Shown: in pieces, positions 20,504 through 58,211 of the stretch
Layout of the letters: each line of letters opens with the position of its first letter
Numbering within the stretch: position 1 is the first letter of the stretch
Assembly (NCBI GenBank): GCA_038049695.1
Contig: CP142452.1
Location: forward strand, 32,228,501 to 32,292,500
Origin: Cinnamomum chago
Taxonomy: Eukaryota; Streptophyta; Magnoliopsida; Laurales; Lauraceae
Direction: 5' to 3'
Length of the DNA stretch: 64,000 bases
The notes under the pieces: model-generated
The model's database searches: none
What the model was told of the DNA's origin: nothing
What the model saw: only the letters and a program-made list of their open reading frames with translations
Made by a program: the position numbers and the translations under genes

Positions 20504-20647
20504 TTAGCTGATAATCATCTGGTTGAGGAAGGCAGCCTGCTCCGGGAAATATTCCATTAGTTCATCCTTGGTAACCCAAACATGGTCTTCACATTTTCCA
20601 ACCATAAATTTGTTGGTACCAATCACTTGCGATTTGAAAAAGAATCG
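20504..20647 (-). CDS. MRPL46: MRPL46 last exon
   Basis: This 144-bp exon starts after the acceptor TTTTGCAG and encodes 47 residues from [14 protein letters not shown] to FLNQMIIS, then TAA. It joins in phase 0 to the exon ending at 43749, 23.1 kb away. The frame is closed immediately upstream by intron sequence, so the exon is invisible to a simple ORF scan. Confidence 0.9.
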   Translation of the reverse strand, partial: RFFFKSQVIGTNKFMVGKCEDHVWVTKDELMEYFPEQAAFLNQMIIS

Positions 20648-23600
20648 CTGCAAAATTCAGCAAAGAAAAATGAGAAATTTCAATTGAGAGAAAACCTATT
20701 TTGGGTACCTGTTTGGGTACCTGCATAAAAAGAATATCTTTACGAAGAACATAGAAGCAATTTATATATATATATATATACACATTTATGAAAGAGAGTT
20801 TTTAATCTCCAATTGATTTTGACCACCTCCAGATTATTTTGACCATCCGTCTGACTCATAAAAAATGTACCCATACCGTGTGTAACATGACAACTCCATT
20901 CAGTTTCCCCAACTTTCACATGTCACGTTCTCTATTATGCAAAAGAAACACCTCCACTCAGTTTCGGTAACTCCTCACAAACGTATGCTGCAAAACCCAC
21001 TCCATGGAGAGTATCGACTTTTCAATAAGGTCTCCCATCGCCCAAAGCCTAATCCTCCACATATAGTTCTTAGGGATGATGCCCAGATACAGATACGGAC
21101 ACGGGTATACACACGGACACGGGGAACGGCAATTCGACATGGCAACTTCAAAAAGTTAGGACACGGATACATGCACGACATCACTTAAAGATATAATTGA
21201 AATTATATTTATGAAAAATAACATATATAGAAAAAATAAAAAATAAACATAGTTAATATTTTAAAAATAAAGCTTGCCCTTGCCCTAAGCCCTGCGCTTT
21301 TATAAAATTTACCCCAGGCCCTAGTCTAATTTTATGAAACCTGCCCCAGGTATAAGGCTCAGCCCATTTAACAAAATATGCCCCAAGGACAGCCTAGGCC
21401 CAATCCCATGCTTGCCACTCTATATTTTTGTTCAATCCTGATTTTAATAGCCCCCTTTCTCGAGAGTCTCTCTTTTCTTTGCTTTTTTTGTTTTTTCTAT
21501 AAAGAGTATCTCTCTTTTCGAAAATTTAAAAGCCGTCCTTTATCCAAGACTCTCTCTCTCCCTCTCAAACGAAAAGGGGAAGAAAAAAGGAAGAATGAAA
21601 GAAAGAGAAAGAAGGAAAAAAGAAAGGAGGAGAAGAGGAGACGTAATGGAGAGAGGAGCGAGGTGAGCGGTGGAAGGAGGGATGAGCAACAAGTAGCTAG
21701 CAATTGACAAATTCAAGAACATATGAAAGATGAGAAGTTTCAGAATTGTATTCTCTTGTCGTGTCTCTCCTTTGGAGATCTACTCTTAATTTATAGGTAT
21801 ATACATCCCTTTAATCAAGGGCCTAAGATAGGAAGGAAAGCTAATTACATCAATTAGTATATCTAAGTTAGGAAAGCAACTAAAGAAAGAGATATGTACA
21901 ACTGTATACAACTGTCTAATATTGACCCAATCTAAATCCACGTGAGATGAATGGGCCTGGGCCTATAGATGAGTTGGGCCTTGGGCCTGTTTAACACCCC
22001 CCCTCAAATTGATGCGGGAGAATCAACAAGCATCAATTTGTCAACCAAGAACTGATGGCGTGGGCGCGGAAGACCTTTAGTGAGAATATCAGCAAGTTGA
22101 AGTTCAGTGGAGACATGCGGAAGGCTGATGACATCACGTTTAAGCTCATCACGTATGAAGTGACAATCAACCTCAATGTGTTTAGTGCGTTCATGAAAAA
22201 TCGGATTTTCAGTAATCCGAATGGCACTTGTATTATCTGCATAGAGGGGGGTAGCTCCTTCTGCTGGAAAGCCAATATCAGAGAGCAAACCGCGGAGCCA
22301 AAGAATTTCGGAGCAGGTAGCAGACATGGCTCTGTACTCGGCCTCGGTAGAGGATCTGGAAACTTTTTCTTGTTTCTTGCATTTCCAAGAAATAAGACTA
22401 TCACCCAAAAACATGCACCATCCTGTCGTCGATCTGTGAGTATCCGGACAACCAGCCCAATCAGCATCAGAATAAGCTATGAGAGAGAGGATTCTTGGAT
22501 GGAAAAAATAGCCCACGAGTCGGTGTGCGAATAAGGTACCGAATGATGCGACGAACAGCAGCCAGATGAAGGTGACGAGGAGCGGTCATGAACTGACTCA
22601 TCAGATTGACCGCATAAGAGATATCAGGACGAGTGATCGTGAGATAGATCAAGCTACCAACTAATTGGCGATATGCAGTAGGATCGAAAAGAAGATCACC
22701 CTCCTCTCGACTGAGTTTGACATTCATTTCGACCGGTGTATCTACTGGAGCAGAAGCAGTGAGGCCAGCCAAGTCAATGAGATCCACAATGTATTTGTGT
22801 TGATTGAGAACTACCTTTAGGCGATTGATGAACTTCAAGACCGAGGATATAGTGTAGAGGGCCGAGATCCTTCATGTGAAATGTCTCACTAAGAGAAGAT
22901 TGAATCTCCTGAATCATTTGGGCATTAGGACCAGTAATGACGATGTCATCAACATAGACAAGGAGTACAGTGATCCCGGATGGAGCATGATGTAAAAACA
23001 TAGAAGGATCATACGGGCTTGGATGAAAATCCAAGCGGAGAAGAGCAGCTTGAAATTTCTCAAACCAGGCGCGAAGAGCTTGTTTCAAACCATAGAGAGA
23101 GCGACGAAGTTTGGCAACCATACCTTTCCCGGATGAGCATCCCTGAGGCAGTCGCATATAAACATCTTCTTTGAGATCACCATGTAGAAACGCATTTTTG
23201 ACATCCATTTGATATAGAGGCCACGATTGAGATGCAGCAACAACAAGAATTGTGCGTACGGTAGTCATCTTCGCAACCGGAGCGAAAGTTTCATCATAAT
23301 CAATGCCATATTCCTGCCTATTGCCAAGAGCAACAAGACGTGCCTTATAGCGATCTAAAGTACCATCAGATTTTAGCTTGAGAGAAAAAACCCACTTACA
23401 ACCAATAGGTTTGACGCCCACAGGAGACGGGACAACATCCAACGTATGATTTTGCTCAAATGCATCTAGTTCATCTTGCATAGCCTTATTCCAACATTGG
23501 TCCTGCACAGCCTGAGAATAGGATTGGGGAATGGAAGAGGAAGACAAAGTGGCCATTAAAGAAGTATGTGAAAACCCATAACGGGCTGGTGCTACCGAAA

Positions 23601-26600
23601 GATGAGTGGAGCGACGCAATGAAGGATGTCCAGAGGTATCAAGTGCCGGGGGTGGAGCAGATGCCGGAGGAAGATCAGGAGGGGGATCCCTGGTAGGCGC
23701 TTCTTTGTTCCGTCTCTGATACACAAAATTTTGATTAAATCGAACAACTGATGGGTTGTCAGAAAAACCAGGTAAAGACACGAAAGAGGAGGAGGCAGGA
23801 GGATCAAGATGTTTTTGAAAAAAATATTGTTGTTCAAAGAAAACGACATTCCTAGAGGTACGTAAACGACGAATGTGAGGATCATAACAAAGGAACCCTT
23901 TCTGGAAGGGTGCATAACCTAAAAAAACACACTGAGCTGATTGTTTGGTTAGTTTTGTTCTCTCAGAAGGAGGCAAATGCACAAAGCAAATGGAGCCAAA
24001 AACATGGAGATCATCATAGGATGGAGAGGTCTTGTACAATCGGTAATATGGGCTTTGATTCTCAATGGAGGTTGATGGCATACGATTGATCAGATAAGTC
24101 GCCGTAGCCAATGCCTCAACCCAAAAACGGGTAGGAACTGATGATTCAAGAAGAAGGGAACGAGTGACATCAAGGAGATGTCTATTTTTCCTTTCAGTGA
24201 TTCCATTCTGCTGGGGAGTATAAGGACAAGTTTTTTGAGAAATAATGCCTTTGTGTTGCAAAAAACGTTGAAAATCTGAGGATACATATTCCCCGCCGGA
24301 ATCAGAACGCAAGATTTTAATGCAAGTGGAAAATTGATTCTCAACATAAGCGAGAAAATTTTTAAAAACATTAAAAACATCAGATTTTGAATGTAGAAAG
24401 TAGACCCATGTGAACCGACTGAAATCATCAATGAAAGTCACAAAATATTTATAGTGAGCATGGGAAAGGGCTGGAGCAATTCCCCATACATCGCTATGAA
24501 TTAAATCAAAACATTGAATGGTGTGGGAAGTGGAGAGAGGAAACGGAAGAGTTTTGCTCTTTCTCATTTTACAAGTAGCACAATCAAAAGGCACACAAGA
24601 AGATAAACCAATAGATTTATTTAATAAACCAGAATTTAACATAAGGGATAAAGCCTTGGAATTAGGATGTCCGAGTCTATTATGCCACAAGCGGCAATTA
24701 TCTCTAAGAGAAAAACAAAACACATTATTGTCAAATTGAGTCCTAGAAAATTTAGAAAAATCCAGTGGAAACAAGCGTCCACACTTAGGCTCCCTCGCGA
24801 TCTCCTTCCCTGACATCTGGTCCTGCACAACACAACCAGAAGAAGAAAAAGAAATGTTACAATTATTTTCAACAAGCTGCCCGACTGACAAAAGGTTTGA
24901 AAGTTAAATTGGGACACAGATAAACATTTTTCAACGGAATGGGACCAGGAATGTCACCGACAACAGTGATGGGAACATGGTCCCCGTTAGCAGTTTGTAT
25001 TTGAAGATGGCCATTGTATTTGTGCACATTTGAGAGTGGGGCACGGGAAGACGTCATATGATTAGACGCCCCGGAATCAAGGAACCAAGTAGATGATGGA
25101 GAGGATGTACCTGATAGACCAAATGTAGAAAGAGCATTGACAATCATTTGTTGGACCAATTCCGGAGTGAGAGAAGATGAGGGCCTAGGCTGTGAAGATG
25201 CAGATGTAGGAGCAGGCATATCCGAAGAAGCAACATAGGCATGTGGAGTCTGATACTGCGGAGATGGACGTTGTGGGCGGCGGCGACATTCAGAGATGAT
25301 ATGTCCTGACTTTTTACAGTAACGGCAGACCTTCTGCTTGCATTGAGATGCAAGATGTCCAAATTTTTGACAGCTGTAGCATTGTGTTTTGCTCAAGTCA
25401 TGAGGCGGAGGCTGAGAAGCTTTGTTTGCCGAGAACGCGACTGAATAGGTCTCAGGTTTTTGTTGAGCAATGTGAGCCGAGGTCGTAAGGCGTTGTTCTT
25501 CGCGTAAGAGTTCATTCAAACAGACATCCAATGAAGGTAGGGGTGTCCGATTCATCAGGGCCGATCGGACACTTTCATATTCATTCCGCAGTTTCATCAA
25601 AAACTGATCGCGCTGACTAGAGGCCTGAAGGTCTTGGATCATTGTTAAAACATTGTCAGCCACATCCGCATACTTAATACTATCATATTCTGACCACAGT
25701 GTACGAAATCCAGAATAGTAGTCTTGTACCGACATTGTCCCTTGAGAGTACTCAGCAATCACACATTCAAGATGAAACTGACGTGCAGAGTTAGTTTGGT
25801 GGTATACTTTCTTCAGGTACCCCCACATGGCTTTAGAGGTAGAGTAAGGCTTGAGATTCATTATCAGATGAGGCTCGACAGATCCCAGAATCCAGGATTT
25901 GATTTTGGCATCTTTAGTATGCCAAGAGGAGATCTTCTCATCCTCAGTGGGTTTAAGGTCAGTTCCAGAAACAAATTCCCACAATTCCTTAGCTTCGAGA
26001 TATATTTGAAATTGGAAGGACCAGGCAGGATAATTTTGTCCCGTAAATTTAATCAAAGTAACCTCAGATTTTTCCATCTCAGTGTTAGATTGGAAAAAAT
26101 TGGATTGAAACAGTAAGAATAGTAATCAACTGAAGCAACAGTGGTAGGAAAAACTGTTTGTGAGTGCAGTAGGCAAGAGCCAACCAGGCAGTAAAGGAAA
26201 AAATCAAATCAGACAAAAAAACAGTAAAAAAACACCTCTGACGACCTTGGCTGGGGCTGCAGATAGTGTACGTGGATCCCACAGATGGATCAGACCCCTG
26301 ATCAGAGGTTTGATCTGAAAAGCCACAGTATTTTCGCACCTTTTGGAATAGATTTGAACATATTCCGCTGAAAATCCAAGATTCTGGATGGTCTTGATTG
26401 AAACTGTTGTAATATTTTGAAATAACACAAGAATGATCAGAAGAGCTACCTGGAGGTGCTGAAAAATCCTGAAAAAATCGCCAATAACCTTAGAAATATC
26501 AGGCGATCATGAATGGATGATTTCGAAGGTTGATCTGATTGATCAAGGGTGGGCCATCAACTGGATGTCACAGACGCAGTAAGAAGAGGTCGCTGAAATT

Positions 26601-29600
26601 TTCTTGAAACAGAAGAGAGAGATCTGTTTGTTGCATGAGAGAGACTTGTTTCTCTCTATCCCTAATCCCTTGATGCTATGGAAGATGTCTAAGATCAAGA
26701 CTTCCTTGAACCTTGCTCTGATACCATGACAAATTCAAGAACATATGAAAGATGAGAAGTTTCAGAATTGTATTCTCTTGTCGTGTCTCTCCTTTGGAGA
26801 TCTACTCTTAATTTATAGGTATATACATCCCTTTAATCAAGGGCCTAAGATAGGAAGGAAAGCTAATTACATCAATTAGTATATCTAAGTTAGGAAAGCA
26901 ACTAAAGAAAGAGATATGTACAACTGTATACAACTGTGTCTAATATTGACCCAATCTAAATCCACGTGAGATGAATGGGCCTGGGCCTATAGATGAGCTG
27001 GGCCTTGGGCCTGTTTAACAGCAATGACAATAGCAGTGGCAGAGGCGACGACATGCTAGTGTATAGGTAGATTTGTCTCATCTTCTTCTTGTTGTTGTTG
27101 TTCTTTTTCTTTCCCATCCTCCTCCCCCTTACAAGGCTTTTTTTTTCAAGGACAGAACCAATTTCTTTCTCTTTTAGTTGCACGAAAGGAAGAAAATGGT
27201 TAGGGTTTTTTTTGCATTTTTTTCCTTAAAATGAGAGAAAGTAGTATCCCAACCGTATCTTGTTGTATCCCATACTCATATCCGTATCGGTAGAAGTACC
27301 ATAGGTGAAATACCGTATTTGAGTATCATAGGTTCTTACTACTTTCTTTCCAACCTCACTTCCGAAGTCCTCTTTCGCTTTATTCTCCCCTCAATCACTT
27401 GGCTATTTAGGCAAGACTGAAATTGAGATACAAAGGCTTTCGATCTTTTGGGTTTCTTTGCATGCTTGGATTTTATTACACTATAGTGTACTTAAACTGC
27501 TTAATTTTTTTTATAAGAATTCTATTTTGCCAAGGTACCAGGTTTAATTTTGTGTTGTGTTTTTTCGTCTCAACCCTTTTGGGTTTTTTCACCCTTCGTT
27601 TCATGGGCTATTGTGATTTAAATATTTTAGGGTTACAGCTTTGTTCCATGAGTTGGGGGTTTTTTGGGTCATTGTCGTCGTCATCATCATCATCCTCATC
27701 AAAGCCTTGTCCCAACTATGTTGGGTTCCGCTAGAAGAATTTTGTTTCTCCATTCCGATCTATCTTGAGCCAATGCTCAGATAAGTTGCACTTCTTCAAA
27801 TCTATTTTTACAACCTCCATCCACGTCCTCTTCAGCCTACCCCCTTCCCCTAGGTGGACCATCAACCTGCGGAGCCAGTCTTTTTCTTACCAGCATCGTT
27901 GCCAGCTTGCATTGGACATGCCTAAACCATCTCAAACATGTTTCCCTAATTTTATCCCCTATTGATGATGCTACACCTAAATGCTCTTGAAAGCGCTCGT
28001 TTATAATTTTAATCTTCCTAGTTTTACTACACATCCACCTCAACATTCCTATCTGTACTACATCCATTTTGCGCATATGTTGCTTCTTGATTGGCCAACA
28101 TTCTACTCCATAAGTCATAGTTGGTCTAATCGCTATCCTGTAAAATTCTTCATTCAATCTTGTTGGCATTCGTCGGTCACAACGCACTTCAGAAGCAAGT
28201 CTCCACTTCAACCATCCTACTTTTATCCTATGTTTGACATCTTCACCAATCTCCCCATCCTTACTAATTATCAAGCCAAGGTAATGGAATGAATGTCTCT
28301 GTGGTATACCCTGGACTTTAATTCTCACAGTAGTTTCAGCTCTTTGTATATGCCCATTGAAGTTGTAGTTCATTTATTATGTCTTTGTACGACTAATTTT
28401 AAAGCCTTCGGATTCAAAAGCCTCTCGCCATCTCTCGATTCATCCACCAACAATATATCATTTGTAAACAACATACACCAAGGTGCCTCCTCTTGAATAT
28501 GAGCAGTTAACTCATCCATAATCAGTGCAAAGAGATAAGGGCTTAGGACTGAAGGAGTTTGATGGGTATTTACATATTATTCGTTTGGGAGCAGAGTAAC
28601 AATTATTTGGGGTGGATTGGAGGTTTCTTGTAGCCCATGCCAAAGACTCGGCATTGGAATTGAGGTCTTTTAAGGGGGCCTCGGCTTTCTATATTCTTGA
28701 TGGGCTGGTGAGTTCACTGTTACAGCTATTGTGAAAGATCAGTGGATTATCTCCTTAGTCTACAGGCCCAGTGACCGCAGCATGGTGAATTTTGGCATGC
28801 AATAGACTTAATTAGAAGGGAGGGCACTTGATGCATTGGTGATTGGAACGTCATCAAATTCCCAGGGGTATTGGGAAGTTTGGAGTTCTTCAGACATACG
28901 GGCTTTCTCAAATTGGATTCTCTCTCTTTGGTGGACTCACCATTGACTGGAGCATCTTTTACTTGGTCTAATCACCAGGCCTCCCCCTCCATTTCTAGAC
29001 TGGATAGATTTCTTGTCTCCATTGAGCAGTTGGGTCTTCTTCCTAAAACTTACCAGCTTACCTCCTAAAACCACCTCAGACCATCACCCGATTGCTTTAG
29101 ATTCTAACCCAAAAAGATGGGGTCGCTGTCCCTTTCATTTTGAGTTGATGTTGCTGGAAGAGAGATGCTTTCCTAACTTGATTCATAATCGGTGGGAGGA
29201 AATCCCAGTTGAAGTGTGGGCAGGGCAGGTTTAATAGTAGATTTATTTATATTACATAAAATATACAAGGGGATCTCCTTGGGAATATTGCCAAGGAAAG
29301 CAACATCTTTGTGGGTCCCCTCCTGAGCTCCTTGTAATTCCGACCCTCTTATGAAAGATCCAGCCTTGCATTAGCTCATGTGCCCAATTTAAGCCCCAAA
29401 CAAACTGTCTGACAACGAGGAGTTTTTGGCTGGCGATTTTGCATGGCCCATATCTGATCATGACTGATCCTGGGATCTGAAAAATACAAGTCTCTCACCC
29501 ACAGACAAAAAAGAAAGGCACGCTCATGGGCCCCTCGTAAAATATTAACACATTTCTACACATTATGAACTTTATTTACTAGGGTGAACAGGTATTTGGG

Positions 29601-47600: not shown

Positions 47601-50600
47601 TAAGTGCGGCCGGTTGTTTCCGCTTAGTCTGCCTATACAACCTAGGGATGAATCTACTTTAGCTTTTTCGAGTGTTCTTCAAAATAATGTGCATCTGTGG
47701 CACAAAAAATTAGGACATCCTAATTCGAACATATTGTTATCTTTGAAAAATTCTGGTTTGATTAATAAAATGCAGTTTTCTACTTCTGATGTCAATATTG
47801 ATTGTTCTGTTTGCAAATTAGGAAAAAGCAAAGCCCTTCCATTTTCTATGCATACCTCTATATCAGAAAAATGTTTTGATTTAATTCATAGTGACGTTTG
47901 GGGTATAACACCTGTTATTTCTCATTCTCACTTCAAATACTTTGTCACATTCATCGATGATCATAGCAGATTCACTTGGGTTTATTTTTTAAGGGCTAAA
48001 TCAGAGGTGTTTGAGGTTTTTAAAACATTTCTGGCCTATGTTGAAACACAATTCTCCACCTGCATAAAGGTTCTCCGCTCTGATTCAGGTGGAGAATATG
48101 TGTCACACAGTTTTCAAAAATTCCTCCAATCTAAGGGGATTATCTCCCAACGAACATGTCCGCATACTCCACAACAAAATGGCATTGCTGAACGGAAGAA
48201 TCGTCATTTGCTGGACATGGTTCGTTGCTTGCTACTTGAATCATCTGTTCCCCCTAGATTCTGGCCGGAAGCTCTATCCACTTCCGTTCACCTTATTAAT
48301 CGGCTTCCGTCTTCCAAACTTCACAATCAGTCTCCATATTTCCGTCTCTTTAACTCTCATCCTACATATACACATCTTCGTCCTTTTGGATGTGTTTGTT
48401 TTGTTCATCTTCCTCCTTCTGAAAGGACAAAATTGTCTGCGCAAGCTACCAAATGCGTTTTTCTTGGTTATGGAACTCATCAAAAAGGATTTGTTTGTTA
48501 TGATCCATCTCTCAAAAGAATTCGTGTTTCTCGAAATGTTGTGTTTTTTGAAAATTTATATTTTTTTTCTCACACAACTGATTCTTTCACTTCACCTCCC
48601 ATGGCTATATTACCACCTTTCTCATCCGATACTCCTTCGTCTTCTGTTGAAAGGTTCAAACCTGGAATTGTATATCGGCGACGCACGGAACCAATCACTG
48701 CTACGATACAGCCCCTTCCAGATCCACCTGATCCGGCACCTGATCCACCTCCCCTAGCCACTACATCAGAACAAGCTATCATGCCCACTCTTCGACGCAC
48801 CACGCGTGTTTCTCGGCCTCCTGATAGATATGGGTATTCTCATTCAGCCTTTCTTGCCACTCTCGCTTCTGTTAACATTCCCACTTCCTACTCTCAAGCT
48901 GTGAAACATGAATGTTGGCGGCAAGCTATGTCCGAAGAATTAGAAGCTCTACAGACTAATCATACATGGGATGTGGTTACCTGCCCCCCTACAGTTCGAC
49001 CTATCGGGTGTAAATGGGTTTACTCGGTCAAACTGAAATCTGATGGCTCTCTCGACAGATACAAGGCTCGCCTGGTCGCTCTTGGTAATCGCCAAGAATA
49101 TGGCATTGACTATGATGAAACATTTGCTCCAGTTGCAAAGATGACTACTGTCCGGATGATTATTGCCATTGCAGCATCTCAAGCTTGGCCCATTCTTCAG
49201 TTCGATGTAAAGAATGCATTTCTTCATGGTGATCTTAAAGAAGAGGTTTATATGCGTCTTCCTCACGGGTATTCCCCTTCCAGTAGTTCAGATGTGGCTA
49301 AACTAAAGCGTTCTCTCTATGGCCTTAAACAGGCTCCTCGCGCTTGGTTTGAAAAATTTCGAGACGCTTTGCTTCTGTTGGCTTTCCAGCAAAGTCCGTA
49401 TGATCCATCGTTGTTTTTACATAAGTCTCCCAGCGGTATCACTATCCTTCTTGTTTATGTTGATGACATCATTATTACTGGAACTGATTCCTCAATGATA
49501 TCTAAGCTTCAATCCTCGTTGCATCAATCATTCCATATGAAAGACTTGGGTCCCTTAACCTACTTCTTAGGTCTTGAAGTTCATCAAACAGAAAAAGGAA
49601 TCATCTTGCACCAACACAAATATGCTCTAGACCTCATTGAACTAGCAGGACTCCAGCAATCAACTCCGGTTGATACTCCTCTTGAAGTGAATTTGAAGCT
49701 CTCAAAGGATAGTGGGGATCTTCTTCCCGATGCCACGCTTTATCGGCAATTGGTTGGTAGCTTGATCTACTTGACTCATACCCGCCCCGACATTTCCTTT
49801 GCGGTTAACCTGGTCAGCCAGTATATGACTCAACCAAGGCATCTTCATTTGACGGCTGTTCGACGAATTATTCGCTACCTTCTTGGTACGACTACTCGTG
49901 GTCTATTTTTTCCGGCAGGCTCCTCACTAAATCTCATTGCTTTCTCCGATGCTGATTGGGCAGGTTGTACAGACACCCGTCGGTCCACAACTGGGTGGTG
50001 TATGTATCTTGGTGATGCGTTGATATCCTGGAAATGTAAGAAACAAGATAAAGTTTCAAGATCTTCCACAGAAGCCGAATATCGCGCCATGTCTGCTGCC
50101 TGTTCTGAAATTCTTTGGCTTCGTGGGCTACTCTCCGATCTCGGTTTTCCACAAAGCTCACCTATACCTCTCCATGCTGACAACACTAGTGCTATTCGTA
50201 TTACAGAAAATCCAGTTTTTCATGAACGAACCAAGCACATTGAAGTTGATTGTCATTTCATTCGTGATGAGTATCTACGGAACGTCATTTCCCTACCGTT
50301 CATTTCCTCTGGGCTCCAGATTGCAGACATCTTCACAAAGGGTCTCCCTCGCCCACGTCATCAATTCTTATCCAGCAAATTGATGCTTACTGATTCCACC
50401 GCATCAATTTGAGGGGGGGTGTTAACATAAGCCCATATAAGTTTGGCCCATTCATGACCCACCTGCAAAGCCCATCATATTATAGACTTGTACAGCAATA
50501 CATACTAAAATAGGAAGATTTGATTGACTGTAATTGTAGCCCAAGATTGGGGATTTCTGATCTCATATTATAGACTTGTACAGCAATACATACTAAAATA

Positions 50601-53600
50601 GGAAGATTTGATTGACTGTAATTGTAGCCCAAGATTGGGCATTTCTGATCTATATAATACAAGGATGAATCCTCAAGGAGATCATCGAATCCAATTCCAT
50701 TCTGTCTTGTTTATGAGTTATAACTCTTTGGCTTATTTCTGACATTACTTTCTTTAAATAGTTTAGTAATTTTAGTAATTTGAGATTTTAGTGATTTGAT
50801 TTATTTAGAGATTTTAGTGAGAGATTTTAAGGAGTGATTTTAGGAATCACTGAATAATAGTAGTTTCTTTATTCAGACCATTCCTCTATTATAAATAGAG
50901 AGGGATGCTTGATTGTAATGCTTATGCTATATTTTTAATAAGATTTGAGAATTATTCTTGTGAGTTCCCCTTTGGGGTATTTCCCCCAAGTGATCTTAGG
51001 ATTTCTTAGGGCTCGATCTCACCGTTGGAGGTGTAGATCTTCTCCATCAGCTATCATTATTCCTACGCCCTCCCTCCCCTCCCAAATCCAACCCAAAACA
51101 AATATGTCAAATCAAACAATGTAGCTCAAGATTTGGGAAACATTAATGTTGACCTACATGCATAGTTACGAAATTCGTTTTCTTTCATCCAAAACGGAAA
51201 AATAATTTGGGTTCAAACAATGGTCCAAACCAAATACCCCCCTTGAAAAAGATTCGGTCTGGATTTCGGATCATTTAGGCCAAAATCTAGGGTTTTGTAT
51301 CGAAACGTTGGATTTTGGATAAAATGGCCCAAGATCCATGTGTTGCAAAAAAAATATGAGAGAGAGAGAGAGAGACCAGACTTGGTTCCCGGAAAAAAAG
51401 AACGAGAGAGAGAGAGGACTGCCTAGTGGGCTTGCTGTCTGCCAGAGCTTGAGTTGCTCTACTGAAGCTCAAGCTACTGCTGGCAACCCTCTTCTCCTTC
51501 TTCCATCTCCTCCTCCTCCTTCCATCTTCTTATTTTCCTCCCCTTTTCTCCCCTCCACTTCCTCTTCCCTCTCTCCTCTCCTTCTTTTCCCTCTCTTATC
51601 TTCCCACCTTTATTCACAAGGAATGTGCGAAATGTGCCCTAACCAAGGATGCAAATAGCGGCCACTATACGTCATCGGCCGTCGCAACTGTGGCGGGCCG
51701 TATCGGCCAATGCGCAAGTGCGGCGGCCGCTAGTAGACCCCCCACTACGTTGGAGGTGTAGATCTTCTCCATCAGCTATCATTATTCCTACTCCCACCCT
51801 CCCCTCCCAAATCCAACCCAAAACAAATATGTCAAATCAAACAAATGTAGCTCAAGATTTGGGAAACATTAATATTGACCTACAAGCATAGTTATGAAAT
51901 TCGTTTTCTTTCATCCAAAACGGCAAAATAATTTGGGTTCAAACAATGGTCCAAACCAAATCCCCCCCTTGAAAAAGATTTGGTCGGGATTTCGGACCAT
52001 TTAGGCCAAAATCTAGGGTTTCGTATCGAAACATTGGATTTTTGGATGGAATGGCCAAGATCCATGTGTTGCAGAAAAAATACAAGAGAGAGAGAGACAC
52101 CAGACTTGGTTCCCGGAAAAAAAGAACGAGAGAAAGAGAGAGAGGACTGCCAGAGCTTGAGTTGCTCTACCGAAGCTCAAGCTGTTGTTGGCAACCTTCT
52201 TCTCCTTCTTCCATCTCCTCCTCCTCCTTCCATCTTCTTATTCCTCTTCTTCTTTTCCTCCCCTCCACTTCCTCTTCCCTCTCCTTTTCTCCTCCCCTTT
52301 TCATCTTCCCTCTCTCTCCTCTCCTTCTTTTCCCTCCCTTTTCTCCCCACCTTCATTCACAAGGAATGTGCGAAATGTGCCCTGACCAAGGATGCAAATA
52401 GCGGCCGCTATGCTTCATCGGCCGTCACAACTGTGGCGGGCCGTATCAGCCAATACGCAAGTGCGGCAGCCACTACGTAGTGGGGGATTATAACCCCCCC
52501 CCCCCCCGATAAGTGCTTAATTGTTTACAATCTAAGCCCTAATATTTGATTGATCTAATGCTAGTTAGAGTTGTTTTATTTGATTTTACAGTCTTTGTTA
52601 ATTTTTTTTATTCAAAGGTAAAAAGGAGCAAAAGGAGAAGAATTAAATCATTAATAAAGAAAAAAAAGACAACTCCAAAGTGTGTCACACGCCCGAGGGG
52701 GGGTCCACATCCATTGCTAAAGGTAGAATTTCAGAATTCAGGGTGTCTTATTCAAGTTAAAAGAGGAGTTCAAGAATGGAGAAAAACAAGGAGAAAAAGA
52801 ATGAAAGTTAAAGGAAGATTTCAAGTTAAAATAGAAGTCCAAAAAGAGGGGTCCCACATTCATTGTGCACGCACCAAATATGGGCCCACTTTTATTCTCA
52901 AGTTTCAGATTTAATTCCTTGCAATTAAAATTCAGATTGGTGGGCCACATGTGAGGAATTGTCAAGAAGATGCAAGTAAGATCAGAATTAGAAAGTATTG
53001 CTAATTACGAAAAGAAGACTCCTATTCTAATCTAAATAGGAAGCATGCTTATAAAGAAAGATGGAGATCTAATCATACAAGGAGAGAAGCCTAAAAAGGA
53101 GGAGATTCTTCACAAAAGAGGGCTGTTGCAAGACTTATAAATAGAAGATACAACCTAGCCATGTCCAGCCATAATACCAGCCATAAAACATCACACAAAC
53201 CATCCACAAATCAGCTACAATATCCACAAACCCTAGCAGCCGTACAACACTATTGGGAGCACCTTTGGAGCATCTTTTGGAGAGCTTTCGGAGCGAGGAA
53301 AAGGGGAAAAAGCTGCTGGCAGAATTCTTCTTCTTCTTCAATATTCAGAGTTCTTCGTATGGCTCTATATTTTATTTTGTTTTCAATTCCAGACATGAGT
53401 AGCTAATTTTTTTAGGGCTAGGGTGTAGTTGAAACCCTAGCCTAATCTATGTAGTCTCTTTTGGCATCTTTTAATTCATATTTCAGTTTTATTACATTCT
53501 AAACCATGATTTAATTGATGAGTTGTGTATATGTCATGCCAACCATGTTATGTTCAATTAATTTTAAGAGTAATTAACTTAAATTTGATTGATCTTGATG

Positions 53601-56600
53601 TTAAGCGTCTAGGGTTTAGAACAATGAATAATCTAAGTATATGCCATGCTTAGACTCATGCATTTATCATTCCCATTGTTTTTATGCATTATGTGTGTTT
53701 TGACTAGGACATATGCCATGCTTAGTTTTTGCATCATAATGAATAATTCATGTAGTATACCACTCATTAATTGGGTTTAGGGGAATAGTAATCTAGACGC
53801 ATATGCCATAGTCTAGGTTGATAGATGTCACTAATAAAATCTGATTTTTTATTAAAAGATAATAAAGGACATGCATAGGATTTGTTAGGGGAGTAGATGA
53901 AACCCTAGTTCATTCATTCATGTCTTCAATTCTAATATTAGTTGTGTGTTTTAGATTAATTTCCATTTAGCTTTTGATAGTTTAATTTACTGTTTTTAGT
54001 AGTTTAATTCAACCTTTCATCATTCAATTGTTTCTTTTAATATTCTGATTTTTAGTTGCTTTTGACATTGTTTTATCACAAGTCTTCGTGGGATCGACCT
54101 CGTACTTACAATTCACTACACTACATAGTGATCTTGTGCGCTTGCGAGTTTTAATTGTGTGCATACTAGTAGCTTATTTCTAGGTTGCTTGGTGAATAAC
54201 CACACCCCCCCCCCCCCCCCCCCCCCACAAAAAAAAAAAAAAACGACTTTAGAGTTTTTTTTTCCCCCCCCACAAAAAAAAAAAAAAACGACTTTAGAGT
54301 TTTTTTTTTTAACTTTTCTTCCTCTTTTTTTTTTTCCACTTTCACTGCTGTAAAACCTCTCCCACTACCTCTAGTAGTCCGAACTCCAATTTTCAAGATT
54401 TTCTTACTACCAAATCAAAAGATTCAACTATTCTAAGGAATCTAAAGATTCTAAACAAGATTCTTCATCTAGGTATGCATTTCTTTGTGATTTTTTTTCA
54501 ACTTTTGAGATTATCACGCTCTAACTACTATGAATCACAACATAATGGCATCATTGTCTTGTTTTATTGTAGATCCATGCTTCCTTTTGATCTTGCATGC
54601 ATATCTTTTGGTTTTTAATTTATATTGTTATTTTTATTTTTGGATTTATGTTATTTAAAAAAAAACATTATTACTTATGGAAAACTCATGAAACAACTTG
54701 AAAATAGCTTCATATTGTTAGATCTAGGTTTCCCATAGATCATTCCAACATATAAAAGCCACCGCTAGTTTCTTCCTTCCCCCTAACTATTAAAGATCTA
54801 AACCAATTAAAATCAATCTCACTAATATATATGAGGCGCGGCCAAATTTTTAGTGTATAAGAAAATAGGGACCTAGCCAAATTCAAATTTTCAATTTGAC
54901 ATGAAACGGATCCTAGCCAAATTTTACTCTAATCGGAAACAGGCCCCAGCCAAGTTTCAATCTAATAAGAAATAGGACCCTAGTCAAATTTCAATCTAAG
55001 AAAAAATGGATATGAGTAAATTTCACTTTAACAGGAAACAAGGCCCTAGCAAAATTTCACTTTAATAGGAAATCGGCCCTAGATATATTTCACTCTAATA
55101 GAAACTGGCCCATCAAATACAATTATTTTATAACAAAACGTAAAAAAAAAAAATCCCTACGAATTTAGAAATTTTTTCAATCCTAAATCTCAGCCATGTA
55201 GAAATAACATATTGCCTGTTGCATTCTTGATTAAGAATAAATTAAATGTACCAATTTATAATTTATTTTTAAATTTTGATATTTTTTTATATACAATATA
55301 AAAATATGGATAAAGATAAGCTTCATTATACACACTGGGGGCAGAATAGGCACACTCGTGAATATTTTTGGGATTTGATTGGAAAGCCACCGCATAAATT
55401 CTGCAAATACAACTAAAACGGAAAAATCCAGTGATGATGCAAGTACAGATAAAATTGATATGAATATTATAGAAGAGCTTTCCACACATGTAAAAAGGGT
55501 ACAGGTGCTAGAAGGTTTTACTGCTTTATCCTCCACTCGTGTGGCTTCTGGAGTAGCTGCTTATACAAGATCTTCTACTTACATAGTGTACACATCTTCA
55601 TCTAACCCTGAGGGCCCGTTTGACAATTTACTAGGTTAGTAGAAGTAATGTAAAGCTTCCATTTTTCAAGGGGTCACATCAAAAGTTATCTTCAAAATTC
55701 CCTACTACTTTTTCAAAAATAAGTCAAAAAGCAACCTCCTTTCTCCGCTAAATAACAAAAAACACTCACTTACACAAAAAGGGAAAAAGATTCTCTATCA
55801 ATCCACTAAAAACAAAATATCATCATAACCCCCTTATATTTTATTCTCTCTTGATTAGATGTTTTACATCACTTTTACTTTAGTAGTAAATTGCCAAACT
55901 GGCCCCATGGATTTTCAATTTGGAAGCCATAAATTACATGATAGGTATGCATCTAATATTCAAAACTTATATATGCTCTATTTCTCATGGCAGCATTCGC
56001 GTTCTTTATGGGAACTGCACAACAGTTGTAGATGAGGGACCTGTTGATGTTTCTCAGTGTTTATCTTTTCCTTCTGTCTTGCATGTTCCCCAATCTTCCC
56101 ATAGTCTAGTTTCTATTATCACCCTAACAAAAACCCCAACTTTTATCATATTTATAAACCAGTCCAACTCCATAGTACCCTAATAATTACAAAAAGGTCC
56201 CCACCATCACTCCTAACAACTTGCACATATTATTTTACCAAAGAATAATGTGGTCAACAGCCCATGTCAAAACAATTATCTTTCCACAATAACATCAATC
56301 GCATCCAAAGATGTGTCCTCTCATGGATTCACATAAATCATAACCTATATCTCAAAATTGATATTTTCCGTATTCAAAACACATTAGAACTTTCTTTTAT
56401 TATTATTTTTTTTCTTTTCTGGCAAAACAGATTAGAATTTTACAAAAGTATGCATCGCAAATTCAGCCAACCCCAAATTGATGGGATAACTGATAAGGCA
56501 GCATTGATGATGATGATATGCATCACTGGATCACTAAGGAAAACAAAAATAATTCAACTAGCAGGACATAACCTATCAAGTCTACGTATTCTTATTCCAT

Positions 56601-56697
56601 TTTTTGTGCATGTCTTCTGTACCTTCTGTCATTAGTCTTGTCCGCTTCAGTGACCCGTGGAGCTGGCACATAATCAATTTGATAATCACCCTTTCCC
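20504..56697 (-). CDS. MRPL46: Mitochondrial large ribosomal subunit protein mL46 (MRPL46), 3' four exons with giant introns; 5' end beyond the window
   Basis: Four exons on one strand, join(56697-56623, 44088-43956, 43874-43749, 20647-20504), give 158 continuous residues ending at TAA 20504-20506. All introns inside are GT-AG; exon phases are 2, 0 and 0 and match exactly. Recognisable motifs in order are [64 protein letters not shown] and [19 protein letters not shown]. These match the conserved C-terminal part of plant mL46 (the Arabidopsis homologue is known as DECOY). The family has a Nudix-like fold in the mitochondrial 54S subunit. Here the Nudix box region ([18 protein letters not shown]) lacks the catalytic REUxEE pattern, as expected for a structural protein. 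There are no stops or frameshifts, so the gene looks functional. Missing are roughly the first 100 residues, including the targeting peptide. Introns are at least 7.3 kb (upstream), 12534, 81 and 23101 bp. Confidence 0.9.
20648..21699. other. Intron sequence of MRPL46 before the first copia element
   Basis: The stretch holds a short (TA)n run near 20762-20782 and a GA-rich, low-complexity region at about 21560-21670. No gene or element ends were recognised. Confidence 0.5.
21705..21996 (-). repeat. 3' LTR of copia element 1
   Basis: 292 bp, nearly identical to 26727-27020. The adjacent bases 21997-22006 carry the purine tract (TGAGGGGGGG on the minus strand), which overlaps the polyprotein stop codon. 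Confidence 0.95.
22004..26077 (-). pseudogene. Copia element 1 Gag-Pol polyprotein, three frameshifts
   Basis: The ATG at 26077 opens a Gag of the UBN2 type ([18 protein letters not shown]) with two CCHC knuckles ([28 protein letters not shown]). The protease motif [13 protein letters not shown] follows. Frame is lost near 24896 at an A run just after protease, near 22811-22816 after reverse transcriptase ([12 protein letters not shown]), and near 22480-22490 in a CT dinucleotide run before RNase H (ADWAGC...[10 protein letters not shown]). Between the breaks all motifs are intact, including integrase with [17 protein letters not shown] and the NGITERKN glutamate. Each break is a 1-2 base length change in simple sequence, so either recent mutation or sequencing error could explain them. 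The stop is TGA at 22004-22006. Confidence 0.9.
26715..26726 (-). other. Primer binding site of copia element 1 (tRNA-iMet)
   Basis: TGGTATCAGAGC on the minus strand, directly after the 5' LTR, is the complement of the plant initiator tRNA-Met 3' end. Confidence 0.95.
26727..27020 (-). repeat. 5' LTR of copia element 1
   Basis: 294 bp, beginning TGTTAAAC and ending TTGTCA on the minus strand. It matches 21705-21996. Confidence 0.95.
27026..27672. other. MRPL46 intron sequence, no gene seen
   Basis: CT- and GTT-rich simple sequence near 27080-27170, then AT-rich sequence. No coding potential recognised. Confidence 0.5.
27673..28556 (-). pseudogene. RTE-type LINE, 3' part only (reverse transcriptase end), inactive
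   Basis: On the minus strand the translation runs from a reverse transcriptase catalytic region ([14 protein letters not shown], then [12 protein letters not shown]) into a C-terminal part ([57 protein letters not shown]) typical of plant RTE LINEs. The usual FADD catalytic box reads FTND, so the first aspartate is lost. The 3' end has the family tail: AACATAGTTGGGACAAGG followed by ATGATGATGATG repeats at 27680-27696. The 5' part is missing; 5' truncation is usual for LINEs. Confidence 0.8.
28560..29232 (+). pseudogene. L1-type LINE endonuclease fragment
   Basis: Frames on the plus strand carry pieces of the L1 ORF2 endonuclease domain: [19 protein letters not shown] near 28740-28795, then [20 protein letters not shown] and [11 protein letters not shown] at about 28895-29020, and [21 protein letters not shown] at about 29075. 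Motifs are in the right order but spread over several frames. It ends at EVWAGQ near 29232. No reverse transcriptase or tail follows. Confidence 0.7.
29233..31139. other. MRPL46 intron sequence, no gene seen
   Basis: AT-rich with a run of 18 A at about 30273-30290. I recognised no domain or transposon terminus. Confidence 0.5.
31140..31603 (+). repeat. Possible LTR remnant, interrupted by copia element 2
   Basis: The sequence has LTR-like layout: a TCTATATAAAGGG box near 31470-31482, TTAATAAAAATCTCTC near 31510, and a tandem GAGTTT run before 31560. Similar flanking text resumes at 36873 after copia element 2. No second copy or target duplication of its own was found, so the call is tentative. 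Confidence 0.35.
31604..31849 (-). repeat. 3' LTR of copia element 2
   Basis: 246 bp. A roughly 19-bp segment (ACAGTGTTYCATGTATATG) is present twice near 31673-31710, which accounts for its extra length over the other LTR. The purine tract TGAGGGGGGG (minus strand) is at 31850-31859. Confidence 0.93.
31857..35979 (-). pseudogene. Copia element 2 Gag-Pol polyprotein, multiply broken
   Basis: The ATG at 35979 begins [14 protein letters not shown]. Frame shifts occur near 35930, 35460, 35040, 34505 and 32400. In-frame stops lie at 33668-33670 (TAG), 33074-33076 (TGA) and 32151-32153 (TAG). Domains still readable are two CCHC knuckles ([28 protein letters not shown]), a protease motif LDFGASNH in which the usual DSG is DFG, integrase ([17 protein letters not shown]), reverse transcriptase (YVDDIIITG) and RNase H ([16 protein letters not shown]). 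It cannot make a functional polyprotein. It ends at TGA 31857-31859. Confidence 0.9.
36634..36645 (-). other. Primer binding site of copia element 2 (tRNA-iMet)
   Basis: TGGTATCAGAGC on the minus strand, directly beside the 5' LTR. Confidence 0.95.
36646..36872 (-). repeat. 5' LTR of copia element 2
   Basis: 227 bp, TG...CA, pairs with 31604-31849. Confidence 0.93.
37137..37267. mobile_element. 131-bp hAT-like MITE with 8-bp target duplication
   Basis: The ends CTATGATGCAC and GTGCATCATAG are perfect 11-bp inverted repeats, extended by a looser CGGATAC / CCGTATA match. The direct repeat CTAGTGAC flanks it at 37129-37136 and 37268-37275. An 8-bp duplication is typical of hAT transposons. The interior is non-coding and rich in ATCGTATC-like words. 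No transposase source is present in this window. Confidence 0.8.
37990..39700 (+). pseudogene. L1 ORF2 C-terminal end: zinc-finger (zf-RVT) and RNase H domains
   Basis: From about 38370 the translation shows [50 protein letters not shown] and [10 protein letters not shown], the zinc-knuckle-like domain following reverse transcriptase in plant L1 elements. RNase H-like motifs follow, with GIGGVIRD near 39000, [25 protein letters not shown] and, after the insertion, [17 protein letters not shown] near 39630. Upstream pieces ([28 protein letters not shown]) are in other frames. Frameshifts and the insertion make it a pseudogene. Confidence 0.8.
39213..39562. mobile_element. 350-bp Mutator-like MITE nested in the L1 element, 9-bp target duplication
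   Basis: The perfect repeat GAGATTGAC flanks it (39204-39212 and 39563-39571) and lies inside the L1 RNase H reading frame, which resumes correctly on the far side. Ends are CAAGGATCAAAATAGC on the left and, inverted, ATGGTTCAAAATAGTG on the right. A second family member is at 56942-57792. The short inverted repeats and 9-bp duplication suggest a Mutator-like origin. It is non-coding. Confidence 0.8.
40170..41330 (+). pseudogene. Degraded copia fragment (integrase end and start of reverse transcriptase)
   Basis: Scattered frames read [15 protein letters not shown] near 40206 (pre-integrase finger), then a post-integrase stretch [28 protein letters not shown] and [11 protein letters not shown] near 40620-40763, and finally [16 protein letters not shown] and [30 protein letters not shown] near 41180-41330, the usual entry to copia reverse transcriptase. 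The fragment is out of frame in places and has no LTRs, so it is old. It is not from the same lineage as the other copia elements here. Confidence 0.7.
41926..42549. repeat. Tandem duplication, 2 x 312 bp
   Basis: GCATGCATTCACACACTACA begins at 41926 and again at 42238, and the two 312-bp units are nearly identical throughout. No coding content was recognised. Confidence 0.9.
42550..43748. other. MRPL46 intron sequence next to exon 43749-43874, no gene seen
   Basis: AT-rich sequence with a (AAAAT)n run near 43350-43375. The intron donor GTACGT is at 43748-43743 on the minus strand. Confidence 0.5.
43749..43874 (-). CDS. MRPL46: MRPL46 internal exon
   Basis: 126 bp, 42 residues from [15 protein letters not shown] to [10 protein letters not shown]. 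The acceptor is CATTTGCAG and the donor AAG|GTACGT. It is in phase 0 on both sides and contains the conserved [16 protein letters not shown] block of mL46. Confidence 0.92.
43956..44088 (-). CDS. MRPL46: MRPL46 internal exon
   Basis: 133 bp encoding 45 residues from (R)[16 protein letters not shown] to [10 protein letters not shown]. The acceptor is TTTCTTCAAG and the donor AAAG|GTAATA. It begins in phase 2, matching the exon that ends at 56623. An 81-bp intron separates it from the next exon, a normal plant intron size, in contrast to its neighbours. Confidence 0.92.
44089..45263. other. MRPL46 intron sequence, no gene seen
   Basis: A plus-strand frame of about 106 codons at 44182-44502 resembles nothing I know and is probably chance. 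No transposon ends were recognised. Confidence 0.5.
45269..45593 (+). repeat. 5' LTR of copia element 3, with internal 88-bp tandem duplication
   Basis: 325 bp, TGTTAAC...CTGACA. An 88-bp unit occurs twice in tandem (45325-45412 and 45413-45500), differing at one base. TATATAATAC near 45501-45510 is a likely TATA box, just after the duplication. Confidence 0.95.
45594..45606 (+). other. Primer binding site of copia element 3 (tRNA-iMet)
   Basis: TGGTATCAGAGCC follows the LTR with no gap; it is the complement of the initiator tRNA-Met 3' end. Confidence 0.96.
46285..50412 (+). CDS. Copia element 3 Gag-Pol polyprotein, intact, 1375 residues
   Basis: The frame is open from 46093, but ATG 46285 aligns with the MDK... 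start of the sister elements and is chosen. Domains in order are UBN2-type Gag (residues about 1-220), CCHC knuckles at 237 ([14 protein letters not shown]) and 255 ([14 protein letters not shown]), aspartic protease DSG at 343, pre-integrase finger near 470-515, integrase with D537, D600 and E636 (DD35E spacing), reverse transcriptase with YVDD at 1058-1061, and RNase H with D1224 and the STEAEYRA motif near 1260. All catalytic residues are present. The length is typical for plant copia. The stop TGA overlaps the purine tract. It is likely expressed from the 5' LTR; whether it is silenced cannot be seen. Confidence 0.96.
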   Translation: MDKNEMQLIKFNGKNYSAWAYQLELYLKGKKLWGHISGTMEKPTEEEKLEDWETKEAQIMSWMLGAVEPQFFLHLKPYKNAQDMWGYLKRIYHQENSARRFQLEHEIAQYSQGQMAVQEYYSGFLVLWTEYMDIAYATITGDALSGVQEVHKITQRDQFLMKLRSEFENVRSNLMSRHPSPSLDACLNEVLREEQRIVTQHQLSQQSSTGPAEVAYVAKGKPPRRDTSTHDLSKIQCFTCKEYGHYSSQCKRKVCNYCKASGHIISECRKRPENRNSRAYSAIASSDSHSVAPASPSSSMSSQQFAPSPLINPEMIQQMILQAFSTLGLSGKTFHSPSMWYFDSGASNHMTSSSRLMSNIQSYDGKLQVQTANGGHLPITAIGDIPHKLPLNHVFLSPGLSTNLLSVGQLVDNHCNVSFSSSGCVVQDQGTGQVIAKGPKCGRLFPLSLPIQPRDESTLAFSSVLQNNVHLWHKKLGHPNSNILLSLKNSGLINKMQFSTSDVNIDCSVCKLGKSKALPFSMHTSISEKCFDLIHSDVWGITPVISHSHFKYFVTFIDDHSRFTWVYFLRAKSEVFEVFKTFLAYVETQFSTCIKVLRSDSGGEYVSHSFQKFLQSKGIISQRTCPHTPQQNGIAERKNRHLLDMVRCLLLESSVPPRFWPEALSTSVHLINRLPSSKLHNQSPYFRLFNSHPTYTHLRPFGCVCFVHLPPSERTKLSAQATKCVFLGYGTHQKGFVCYDPSLKRIRVSRNVVFFENLYFFSHTTDSFTSPPMAILPPFSSDTPSSSVERFKPGIVYRRRTEPITATIQPLPDPPDPAPDPPPLATTSEQAIMPTLRRTTRVSRPPDRYGYSHSAFLATLASVNIPTSYSQAVKHECWRQAMSEELEALQTNHTWDVVTCPPTVRPIGCKWVYSVKLKSDGSLDRYKARLVALGNRQEYGIDYDETFAPVAKMTTVRMIIAIAASQAWPILQFDVKNAFLHGDLKEEVYMRLPHGYSPSSSSDVAKLKRSLYGLKQAPRAWFEKFRDALLLLAFQQSPYDPSLFLHKSPSGITILLVYVDDIIITGTDSSMISKLQSSLHQSFHMKDLGPLTYFLGLEVHQTEKGIILHQHKYALDLIELAGLQQSTPVDTPLEVNLKLSKDSGDLLPDATLYRQLVGSLIYLTHTRPDISFAVNLVSQYMTQPRHLHLTAVRRIIRYLLGTTTRGLFFPAGSSLNLIAFSDADWAGCTDTRRSTTGWCMYLGDALISWKCKKQDKVSRSSTEAEYRAMSAACSEILWLRGLLSDLGFPQSSPIPLHADNTSAIRITENPVFHERTKHIEVDCHFIRDEYLRNVISLPFISSGLQIADIFTKGLPRPRHQFLSSKLMLTDSTASI
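50411..50419 (+). other. Polypurine tract of copia element 3
   Basis: GAGGGGGGG lies directly before the 3' LTR and overlaps the polyprotein stop. The same tract is found in copia elements 1 and 2. Confidence 0.9.
50420..50744 (+). repeat. 3' LTR of copia element 3
   Basis: 325 bp, identical to 45269-45593, including the 88-bp duplication (50476-50563 and 50564-50651). Confidence 0.96.
50750..51022 (+). repeat. Possible LTR remnant beside copia element 3
   Basis: It has an LTR-like layout: TATAAATAGAG near 50890-50900, then ATAAGATTTGAG and TCTTGTGAGTTCCCC. Its other half was not found, so this is tentative. Confidence 0.3.
51023..52487. repeat. Tandem duplication, two units of about 725-740 bp
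   Basis: CGTTGGAGGTGTAGATCTTC begins at 51023 and again at 51748. The units share CCCAAATCCAACCCAAAACA, a GAGAGA run, a CT-rich tract, and a block near their ends rich in GGCCG (51655-51735 and 52395-52475). There are scattered substitutions and indels. The GAGA and CT tracts create spurious reading frames. No gene is supported. Confidence 0.85.
52508..54165 (+). mobile_element. Possible solo LTR of a gypsy-type element, about 1.66 kb
   Basis: The left end (GATAAGTGCTTAATTG) and the right end (CGCTTGCGAGTTTTAATTGT) resemble the ends of long LTRs of plant gypsy elements. CTTATAAATAGAAG near 53135-53148 is a candidate TATA box. No target duplication, primer site or internal gene was seen, and the left end follows a run of C. 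The call depends on remembered similarity only. Confidence 0.4.
54203..54312. repeat. Homopolymer-rich tandem duplication (poly-C, poly-A, ACGACTTTAGAG)
   Basis: A run of C, then CACAAAA..., then CGACTTTAGAGTTTTTTTTT occurs twice in tandem with a period of about 53 bp. The region is highly prone to slippage and sequencing error. Confidence 0.8.
54313..54834. other. MRPL46 intron sequence, no gene seen
   Basis: AT-rich with CT tracts. Nothing recognisable. Confidence 0.5.
54835..55112. repeat. Degenerate minisatellite, about six units of about 42 bp
   Basis: Variants of CTAGCCAAATTTCAATCTAA followed by AGGAAATAGGGCC-like text repeat about every 40-45 bases, with many substitutions. The array is old and non-coding. 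Confidence 0.7.
55113..55610. other. MRPL46 intron sequence, no gene seen
   Basis: One plus-strand frame at about 55380-55640 (containing [16 protein letters not shown] and [17 protein letters not shown]) looks protein-like in composition but matches nothing I know. No start context or splice structure supports it. Confidence 0.4.
55611..55906. mobile_element. MITE with GGGCCCGTTTGACAATTTAC-type inverted termini
   Basis: The left end GGGCCCGTTTGACAATTTAC pairs with the inverted right end GGGGCCAGTTTGGCAATTTA. This terminus type is common among plant hAT MITEs. No convincing 8-bp duplication is left. The interior matches 3060-3316. Confidence 0.6.
55907..56622. other. MRPL46 intron sequence near exon 56623-56697, no gene seen
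   Basis: A plus-strand frame at about 55925-56180 includes [17 protein letters not shown] and [20 protein letters not shown], faintly like a copia protease flank. It is too short and eroded to call. Confidence 0.4.
56623..56697 (-). CDS. MRPL46: MRPL46 internal exon, most 5' one in the window
   Basis: This 75-bp exon lies between the acceptor TTGTATTCAG and the donor AGAAG|GTACAG. It encodes [20 protein letters not shown] then TNDR, a signature of plant mL46, with two bases left over that combine with the exon at 44088. The acceptor phase shows that another coding exon lies upstream, beyond 64000 or unrecognised. Confidence 0.9.
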
Positions 56698-56941
56698 CTG
56701 AATACAATTGCAACAGCCACATTACTAGAAAAGTCTCCATCTAGAATAGCCATAAAAATGATAGTAACAAGAAGAACAAAAAGCAACATTAGAGGCAGAA
56801 CACAAACAAAGAATACAGATAAACTTACACTCTTACAGACCTTTTTGTCACAGAACAATCAATCATGCAAGCGACAAACAGCCACATTAAGAAGGAAAAG
56901 CTAATAATATACAAAATATCATGTGCAAGTGCAAACATAAT

Positions 56942-57792
56942 CAAGGAGCAAAATAGCGGTTGAGGCAGGCCTAGCGGCCGGAGGCCAAAATCTACATAGG
57001 CTGTAGCAGTGTAGTGGTGTGAGTCAAACATGTGGGAAAAAAATCTGAAAAAAAAATATATCCAAGAAACCCAGAATATTGGAAAAAGGTAGAATTTAAT
57101 GGGTTTTTTTCATTAGTAACTAAGAAAAGGGGTGTAGTGGTCCCTCATTACACAGAAGTCCTATATCATTGTATGGCTGGTCCACAAGATTGAAAAATTC
57201 TCTGATCTATAGGATTGAGAAATCCCCGAGAATCCAAAAATAAATAAGGAAAAATTTATAGAAACTTCAACCATTTGGGATTGATCTATGGGAAACATAG
57301 ATCTACATGTTAGAATGCACTAGAATGTGATTGGGTTTGCCCTTTAAGGAAAGAAAATCTTGAAAAATCCATAAACAAACAGAAAAAAATTAGAAAAAAT
57401 CAAACCATTTGGGACTGATTGGTGACAATATAGATCTATAAGTTAGCATGCATCAAAATGTGATTCCTTGGCACGCTTTGAGTAAAAGACCTTTTAAAAA
57501 AAAAATCTAACAATAAATAGGAAAAAAAAAAACAAGAAGGCTCAAACCATTTGTCATTGATCTATGGAAAACATGGATCTAAAAGTTATAAGGTATTTTC
57601 AAGTGGTTCATAAAAAATAAAAAATAAAAAGGGAGAGAAATAAGCAAAAAAGAAAAAAGAAAATTTTTGAAAATTCGCTACATAGAGCGACTTCAGGCCA
57701 CTACAACAAAATAGTGGCACCCCTCAATTAGTATGGCCACTAATGCGGCTACTACGTAGCTACGCTATATAGCGCCTGCTATTTTGAACCAT
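56942..57792. mobile_element. Longer relative of the 39213-39562 Mutator-like MITE
   Basis: It begins CAAGGAGCAAAATAGCGG and ends GCTATTTTGAACCAT, matching both ends of the nested element in the L1. At 851 bp it is more than twice as long. The flanks share only ACATAA (left 56935-56940, right 57795-57800), so the duplication has decayed or boundaries are slightly off. The interior is AT-rich and non-coding. Confidence 0.65.
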
Positions 57793-57839
57793 GTACATAA
57801 CACACTCATCAATTCCAAACCAAATGAGAAGTGCAGCAA

Positions 57840-58211
57840 TAGGGATGTAAACTGGTCGGTTCCGGTTCCAAGTGGACCCTGACCCGGAACCAGTTCGGCT
57901 TCTTGGTTCCGGAACCGAAACCGTTAATGAGAATATGGAACCGGAACCATATATGGGGTGGGTCCGGTTCCGAGTCTAGGTAGATAATGATAAGGAAAAA
58001 AGGCAAATAAAAAGGGTAGCTTTTCAAAATTTGAGGTAACATGTTGAGTCCACGGGTCGGAACTATGGTGGAACCAGACCCGGACCCGTTTCGATTACAG
58101 GTCCAAAAAAGGGCCCGGACCCATTTACTTATCAGGGCCTAAATAAGGACCCAAACCCGGTTTTTAACGGGTCGGGACCTCCGGATAATCGGGGACCCAT
58201 TTACATCCATA
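57840..58211. mobile_element. 372-bp hAT-like non-autonomous element, 8-bp target duplication
   Basis: TAGGGATGTAAA at the left and, inverted, TATGGATGTAAA at the right are its termini. The perfect repeat TGCAGCAA flanks it (57832-57839 and 58212-58219). The 8-bp duplication and TAGGG-type ends are typical of hAT. The interior is full of GGTTCCGG / CCGGAACC words able to form hairpins and carries no transposase. Confidence 0.85.

Follow-up and report, generated by a model that had tools for sequence, protein, structure and literature searches.

Four short exons resembling parts of a gene for the mitochondrial large-subunit ribosomal protein mL46 lie scattered over 36 kb of transposon-rich DNA in a 64-kb stretch of the Cinnamomum genome (bases 32228501–32292500 of a 110.475-Mb contig; the window, i.e., the whole stretch analysed), raising the question of whether they form one intact, spliced gene and, if so, what enlarged its introns. 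All four exons were found on the minus strand as originally predicted, with GT-AG sites and compatible phases joining them to 158 residues followed by TAA, and the lengths given for the three introns between them (12,534, 81, and 23,101 bp) were correct (Table 1). While the rest of the 64-kb window contained no 5′ exons, extension of the hunt into 80 kb of DNA adjoining the window identified, beyond position 64000, two exons completing the 232-aa frame; exons 1 and 2 begin 7.8 and 6.7 kb past the window end, respectively, and their junctions were read from the sequence after tblastn with an annotated Persea americana protein (P0001). The complete gene thus consists of six exons with 699 coding nt (232 aa plus stop, ATG included) in an uninterrupted frame, and spans 51,408 bp from start to stop (genome 32249004–32300411), of which 1.36% is coding. 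A single spliced gene is therefore supported, but the earlier model was incomplete, as it lacked exons 1 and 2; similarly, both giant introns that it contained are real, but a third one, intron 2, reaches beyond the window.

Table 1. Exons, introns, and transposable elements of the mL46 gene. Positions are window coordinates, continued past 64000 for features that extend outside the window.
Feature	Coordinates	Strand	Basis and properties
Exon 1 with ATG	71757-71911 (continued) = genome 32300257-32300411	-	Outside window; tblastn with P0001 residues 1-51
Exon 2	70660-70725 (continued) = genome 32299160-32299225	-	Outside window; tblastn with P0001 residues 52-73
Exon 3	56623..56697	-	Read from sequence and mL46 match
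Exon 4	43956..44088	-	Read from sequence and mL46 match
Exon 5	43749..43874	-	Read from sequence and mL46 match
Exon 6 with stop codon TAA	20504..20647	-	Read from sequence and mL46 match
Intron 1			1,031 bp, phase 2
Intron 2, window part	56698..64000	-	13,962 bp total, phase 2; runs on to 70659 (continued)
Intron 3	44089..56622	-	12,534 bp, phase 2
Intron 4	43875..43955	-	81 bp, phase 0; length divisible by three, in-frame stop absent
Intron 5	20648..43748	-	23,101 bp, phase 0
Older copia, intron 2	~59906-69009 (continued; window part 59906..64000)	+ (antisense)	10 LTR differences in 237 aligned sites; limits approximate
Younger nested copia, intron 2	61454-66970 (continued; window part 61454..64000)	+ (antisense)	Target duplication ATATC; 5 LTR differences in 318
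Young copia, intron 3	45269..50744	+ (antisense to gene)	Target duplication TTACT; LTRs identical over 326 bp
Older decayed copia, intron 5	31604..36872	- (gene sense)	Target duplication CTATG; 8 LTR differences in 228; several short ORFs
Young copia, intron 5	21705..27020	- (gene sense)	Target duplication GCAAT; 1 LTR difference in 292 sites; two main ORFs
LINE fragment, zf-RVT domain, intron 5	38149..38886	+ (antisense to gene)	Pfam zf-RVT E 1e-17

All six exons presented AG/GT flanks, with GT-AG introns throughout. Donor sites agree with AGGTAAGT at 5–7 of 8 positions, those of introns 1 and 3 being weak (5/8 each), and the pyrimidine content of the acceptors is 71–82% for introns 3–5, 59% for intron 2, and 41% (weak) for intron 1. 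The last exon has no usable open reading frame of its own (the open frame there is 50 aa), as had been claimed. Retention of intron 4 would add 27 residues and keep the frame, since the intron length is a multiple of three and contains no in-frame stop.

The identity of the protein is supported by comparisons with both solved and annotated proteins. The C-terminal 158 aa, previously assigned to the conserved C-terminal region of plant mL46, matched PDB 6xyw chain AI (mL46, labelled At1g14620) with an E value of 3.9e-77; this alignment covers residues 2–158 with one single-residue indel, which excludes a chance match. Weaker matches were to other chains named mL46, 39S L46, or 54S L17. Over the full 232 aa, the protein presented 98.7% identity (three mismatches, no gap) to P0002 (Persea americana MRB53_009880) and 97.8% identity (four mismatches, one gap) to P0001. 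These two annotated Persea proteins were the only ones with >90% identity among the 120 matches listed (314 at E 1e-80 or better, from 790 candidates); the P0002 cluster also includes a EukProt source (RNA or genome). Comparison with the solved chain covered the C-terminal 158 aa, and the N-terminal 74 residues were set against annotated proteins; together, the whole-protein match to annotated plant mL46 proteins and the C-terminal match to solved mL46 place this protein within the mL46 family. Lengths are also similar, at 232 aa here, 232 aa for MRB53_009880, and 233 aa in the 6xyw chain. A Pfam scan of the 158-aa fragment reported no domain; the MRP-L46 model (PF11788) reached 16.7 bits against a gathering cut-off of 21.9 in a partial match (24–66), this protein being the one plant mL46 scanned. 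The sequence evidence thus supports a gene for mitochondrial mL46 of a Lauraceae plant near Persea.

With regard to copy number, a genome search (1.06 Gb, 14 contigs) with the C-terminal 158 aa, in which the five best candidates were scored, yielded four matches at E 0.001, all of which represent these exons. No second mL46 copy was thus found genome-wide with this query among the best candidates scored, and the search for another MRPL46 locus, which would have cast doubt on this one, came back empty for the C-terminal part. By sequence search, mL46 is apparently single-copy, as shown for its C-terminal part only. Exon DNA had no match among plasmids, a search that was uninformative.

Self-comparison and boundary inspection identified five LTR elements of copia type within the gene, four of them flanked by exact 5-bp target duplications, marking the giant introns as expanded by transposable elements (TEs). 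Copia-type Pfam domains were found in the ORFs of four elements. All three elements in introns 3 and 5 carried RVT_2 and integrase domains, and two of them gag as well, while the nested element in intron 2, for which the gag ORF alone was scanned, contained a gag domain. The copia element in intron 3 contains one uninterrupted 1470-aa gag-pol ORF (46000–50412). The outer element in intron 2 is interrupted by its younger relative and apparently lacks gag; it was assigned to copia because its interior, read in the direction of the nested element, matches that element at 81–83%. The original prediction of three full-length copia elements in 36 kb holds with regard to LTR structure and exact target duplications, but only one of the three has kept its coding capacity. 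Copia sequence makes up 65% of intron 2, 44% of intron 3, and 46% of intron 5 (leaving 4.9, 7.1, and 12.5 kb, respectively); in total, 25,165 of the 50,709 intron bases, about half, belong to copia elements. The giant introns thus carry copia elements while intron 4 stays at 81 bp, in agreement with the intron-specific expansion proposed earlier; if introns grew by chance insertions, an 81-bp intron beside giant ones would be expected. Each LTR of the copia element in intron 3 also carries an 88-bp tandem duplication with 96% matching (45324–45508 and 50475–50659).

Kimura two-parameter (K2P) divergences between LTRs were 0, 0.003, 0.016, and 0.036 for four of the elements and 0.044 for the interrupted outer element, which suggests that the copia insertions occurred at different times and that the newest is too recent to date. 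The order of close insertions is uncertain, with 228–326 aligned LTR sites per element; the nested copia in intron 2 is younger than its host element by position alone. At the grass rate of 1.3e-8 substitutions per site per year, these divergences correspond to a soft range of 0 to 1.7 million years. The magnoliid rate of 1.51e-9 per site per year (PMC8626473) converts the same divergences to 0 to 14.4 million years, and absolute insertion dates are soft because the two rates differ to this extent.

The intron remainders stay long after removal of copia and contain at least the LINE fragment and a weak pol remnant (Pol_BBD at 55890–56183, intron 3, below the Pfam cut-off). LINEs had been claimed in the plural; one fragment was found, and the plural is unsupported. 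The intronic MITEs that had also been proposed could not be confirmed, as an inverted-repeat scan of 20500–56800 yielded 17 pairs with short (16–47 nt) or low-complexity arms, none of them convincing. Among the 14 ORFs of at least 200 aa in the window, 11 were scanned with Pfam, and retroelement domains above cut-off were found in eight of these; the three left out were the ORF at 48068–48757, which overlaps the 1470-aa copia ORF in another frame, and two ORFs outside the gene. Nested host genes in the introns were considered and rejected, since all seven scanned in-gene ORFs of at least 200 aa were retroelement ORFs. Eighteen shorter ORFs showed no Pfam domain above cut-off; sub-cut-off matches included CFA20_dom at 56249–56635 (opposite strand, overlapping exon 3), UQ_con, RWD, and Prok-E2_B at 37484–37810, and YagK_YfjJ_C at 27981–28292. 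Intron 5 also contains a 312-bp tandem duplication (41925–42553, 95% identical) some 1.2 kb past exon 5, and intron 2 contains, at 59453, an isolated motif that we take to be initiator-methionine primer-binding-site-like and that may mark another LTR remnant.

We hold with high confidence that these observations describe an intact mL46 gene, a 51-kb unit whose introns were enlarged by successive copia insertions and older repeats. RNA polymerase II would transcribe approximately 51 kb from the minus strand as one unit, and the spliceosome would remove five introns, three of them of 12.5 to 23.1 kb, to give the 699-nt coding sequence; the three big introns grew through successive copia insertions added to older repeats. 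In line with this gene model, an AATAAA starts 181 nt after the stop codon. The intactness of the gene and its near-identity to the Persea proteins indicate that it is very probably functional.

The same exons could also belong to a recently dead copy, in which transcripts stop in a TE-filled intron and another locus, or nothing, supplies mL46. Both copia elements in intron 5 are in gene sense, so their LTRs could terminate transcripts, and the variant ATTAAA occurs on the gene strand in both LTRs of the 21705–27020 element; the canonical AATAAA, however, is absent from all four LTRs of the two sense-oriented elements (21705–27020 and 31604–36872). Plant polyadenylation signals are loose, and this argument from motifs is weak because of that looseness, the ATTAAA in the LTRs, and the 19 gene-strand AATAAA in intron 5. 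The 232 codons are uninterrupted although two elements have LTR K2P values of about 0.04, and no second mL46 was found with the C-terminal query, making a dead copy very unlikely. Less probable again is a split gene, in which an alternative last exon within intron 5, after exon 5, would yield a shorter mL46. Intron 5, with its 23.1 kb and 19 gene-strand AATAAA, offers room for such an exon, but its AATAAA density (0.82 per kb) is no higher than those of introns 1–3 (0.97, 0.86, and 1.20 per kb, respectively), and exon 6 encodes, in an open frame, the last 47 residues, which the two Persea proteins and the solved plant mL46 also have. Misjoining of transposons into the introns during assembly, which a region rich in repeats might invite, is scarcely credible, as exact 5-bp target duplications bound four elements as in real insertions and the gene lies within one 110 Mb sequence, with zero N in the 144 kb examined.

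An intact gene with TE-filled introns has clear precedents. According to two genome reports, long TE-rich introns are prevalent in magnoliids and Chloranthales, and in Chloranthus spicatus 876 of the 2,184 orthologs identified with high confidence are longer than 20 kb (PMC8626473, PMC8626421). The same sources put the mean intron at approximately 1.66 kb for Lauraceae and at 2.87 kb for Magnoliaceae (PMC8626473, PMC8626421); the giant introns of mL46 are longer than this Lauraceae mean by factors of approximately 7.6, 8.4, and 13.9. In one of these reports, TEs have accumulated in the introns of C. sessilifolius, where 8,187 genes are longer than 20 kb, and TE content correlates modestly with intron length (R2 0.18) (PMC8626421). 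The mL46 gene resembles the long-intron genes of these reports in being a conserved gene of normal coding length lengthened largely by LTR elements (PMC8626473, PMC8626421). An avocado annotation lists genes whose lengths range between 39 and 83,886 (N50, 1,515 bp) (PMC9531333), so that a 51-kb gene would rank as long there, yet would have equals. No literature on the introns of the mL46 gene was found among open-licence papers. Because TE-filled long introns have already been described for magnoliids, the general view is unchanged, and the mL46 locus illustrates a known phenomenon well. It represents a clean case of intron growth in a conserved gene for which no second copy was seen, with five copia elements, one of them nested in its relative and another with identical LTRs, beside an 81-bp intron that stayed short. 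The locus also carries an annotation warning, as 23 kb separate exon 6 from exon 5 and 14 kb separate exon 2 from exon 3.

In Arabidopsis, transcripts are kept from being polyadenylated within intronic TEs by the heterochromatic marks that these TEs carry and by the IBM2/EDM2/AIPP1 pathway (PMC4417168, PMC10241880), and genes with heterochromatic intronic TEs, such as RPP7, need IBM2/EDM2 (PMC4417168, PMC10241880, PMC7529245). By analogy with the Arabidopsis genes so described, the intronic elements of mL46 are most likely heterochromatic and read through, as in both cases a TE lies within the gene and full-length mRNA must cross it. Unlike those Arabidopsis genes, Cinnamomum mL46 is a housekeeping-type gene with five copia elements in three introns. 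It is conceivable, but unlikely, that mL46, for which no back-up copy was seen, would depend on heterochromatin masking of copia for its full 51-kb transcript; if this were true, mitoribosome output would fall when TE silencing, or a pathway resembling IBM2/EDM2, is lost. The locus is a useful test of plant gene transcription across silenced elements, and its interest is modest unless expression depends on TE masking.

Downstream of the gene, we identified an LTR-gypsy-like element (5124–16207) whose LTRs show 6 differences in 680 aligned sites. This element contains a 1934-aa ORF on the minus strand with RVT_1, RNase H, and integrase domains, as well as three plus-strand ORFs (225, 349, and 270 aa) without Pfam domains above cut-off. 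Between this element and the gene, a fold-back at 17442–18060 presents 168-nt arms that are 85% complementary and 25 nt apart, within a longer self-complementary stretch; this fold-back, which lies outside the gene, could be MITE-like.
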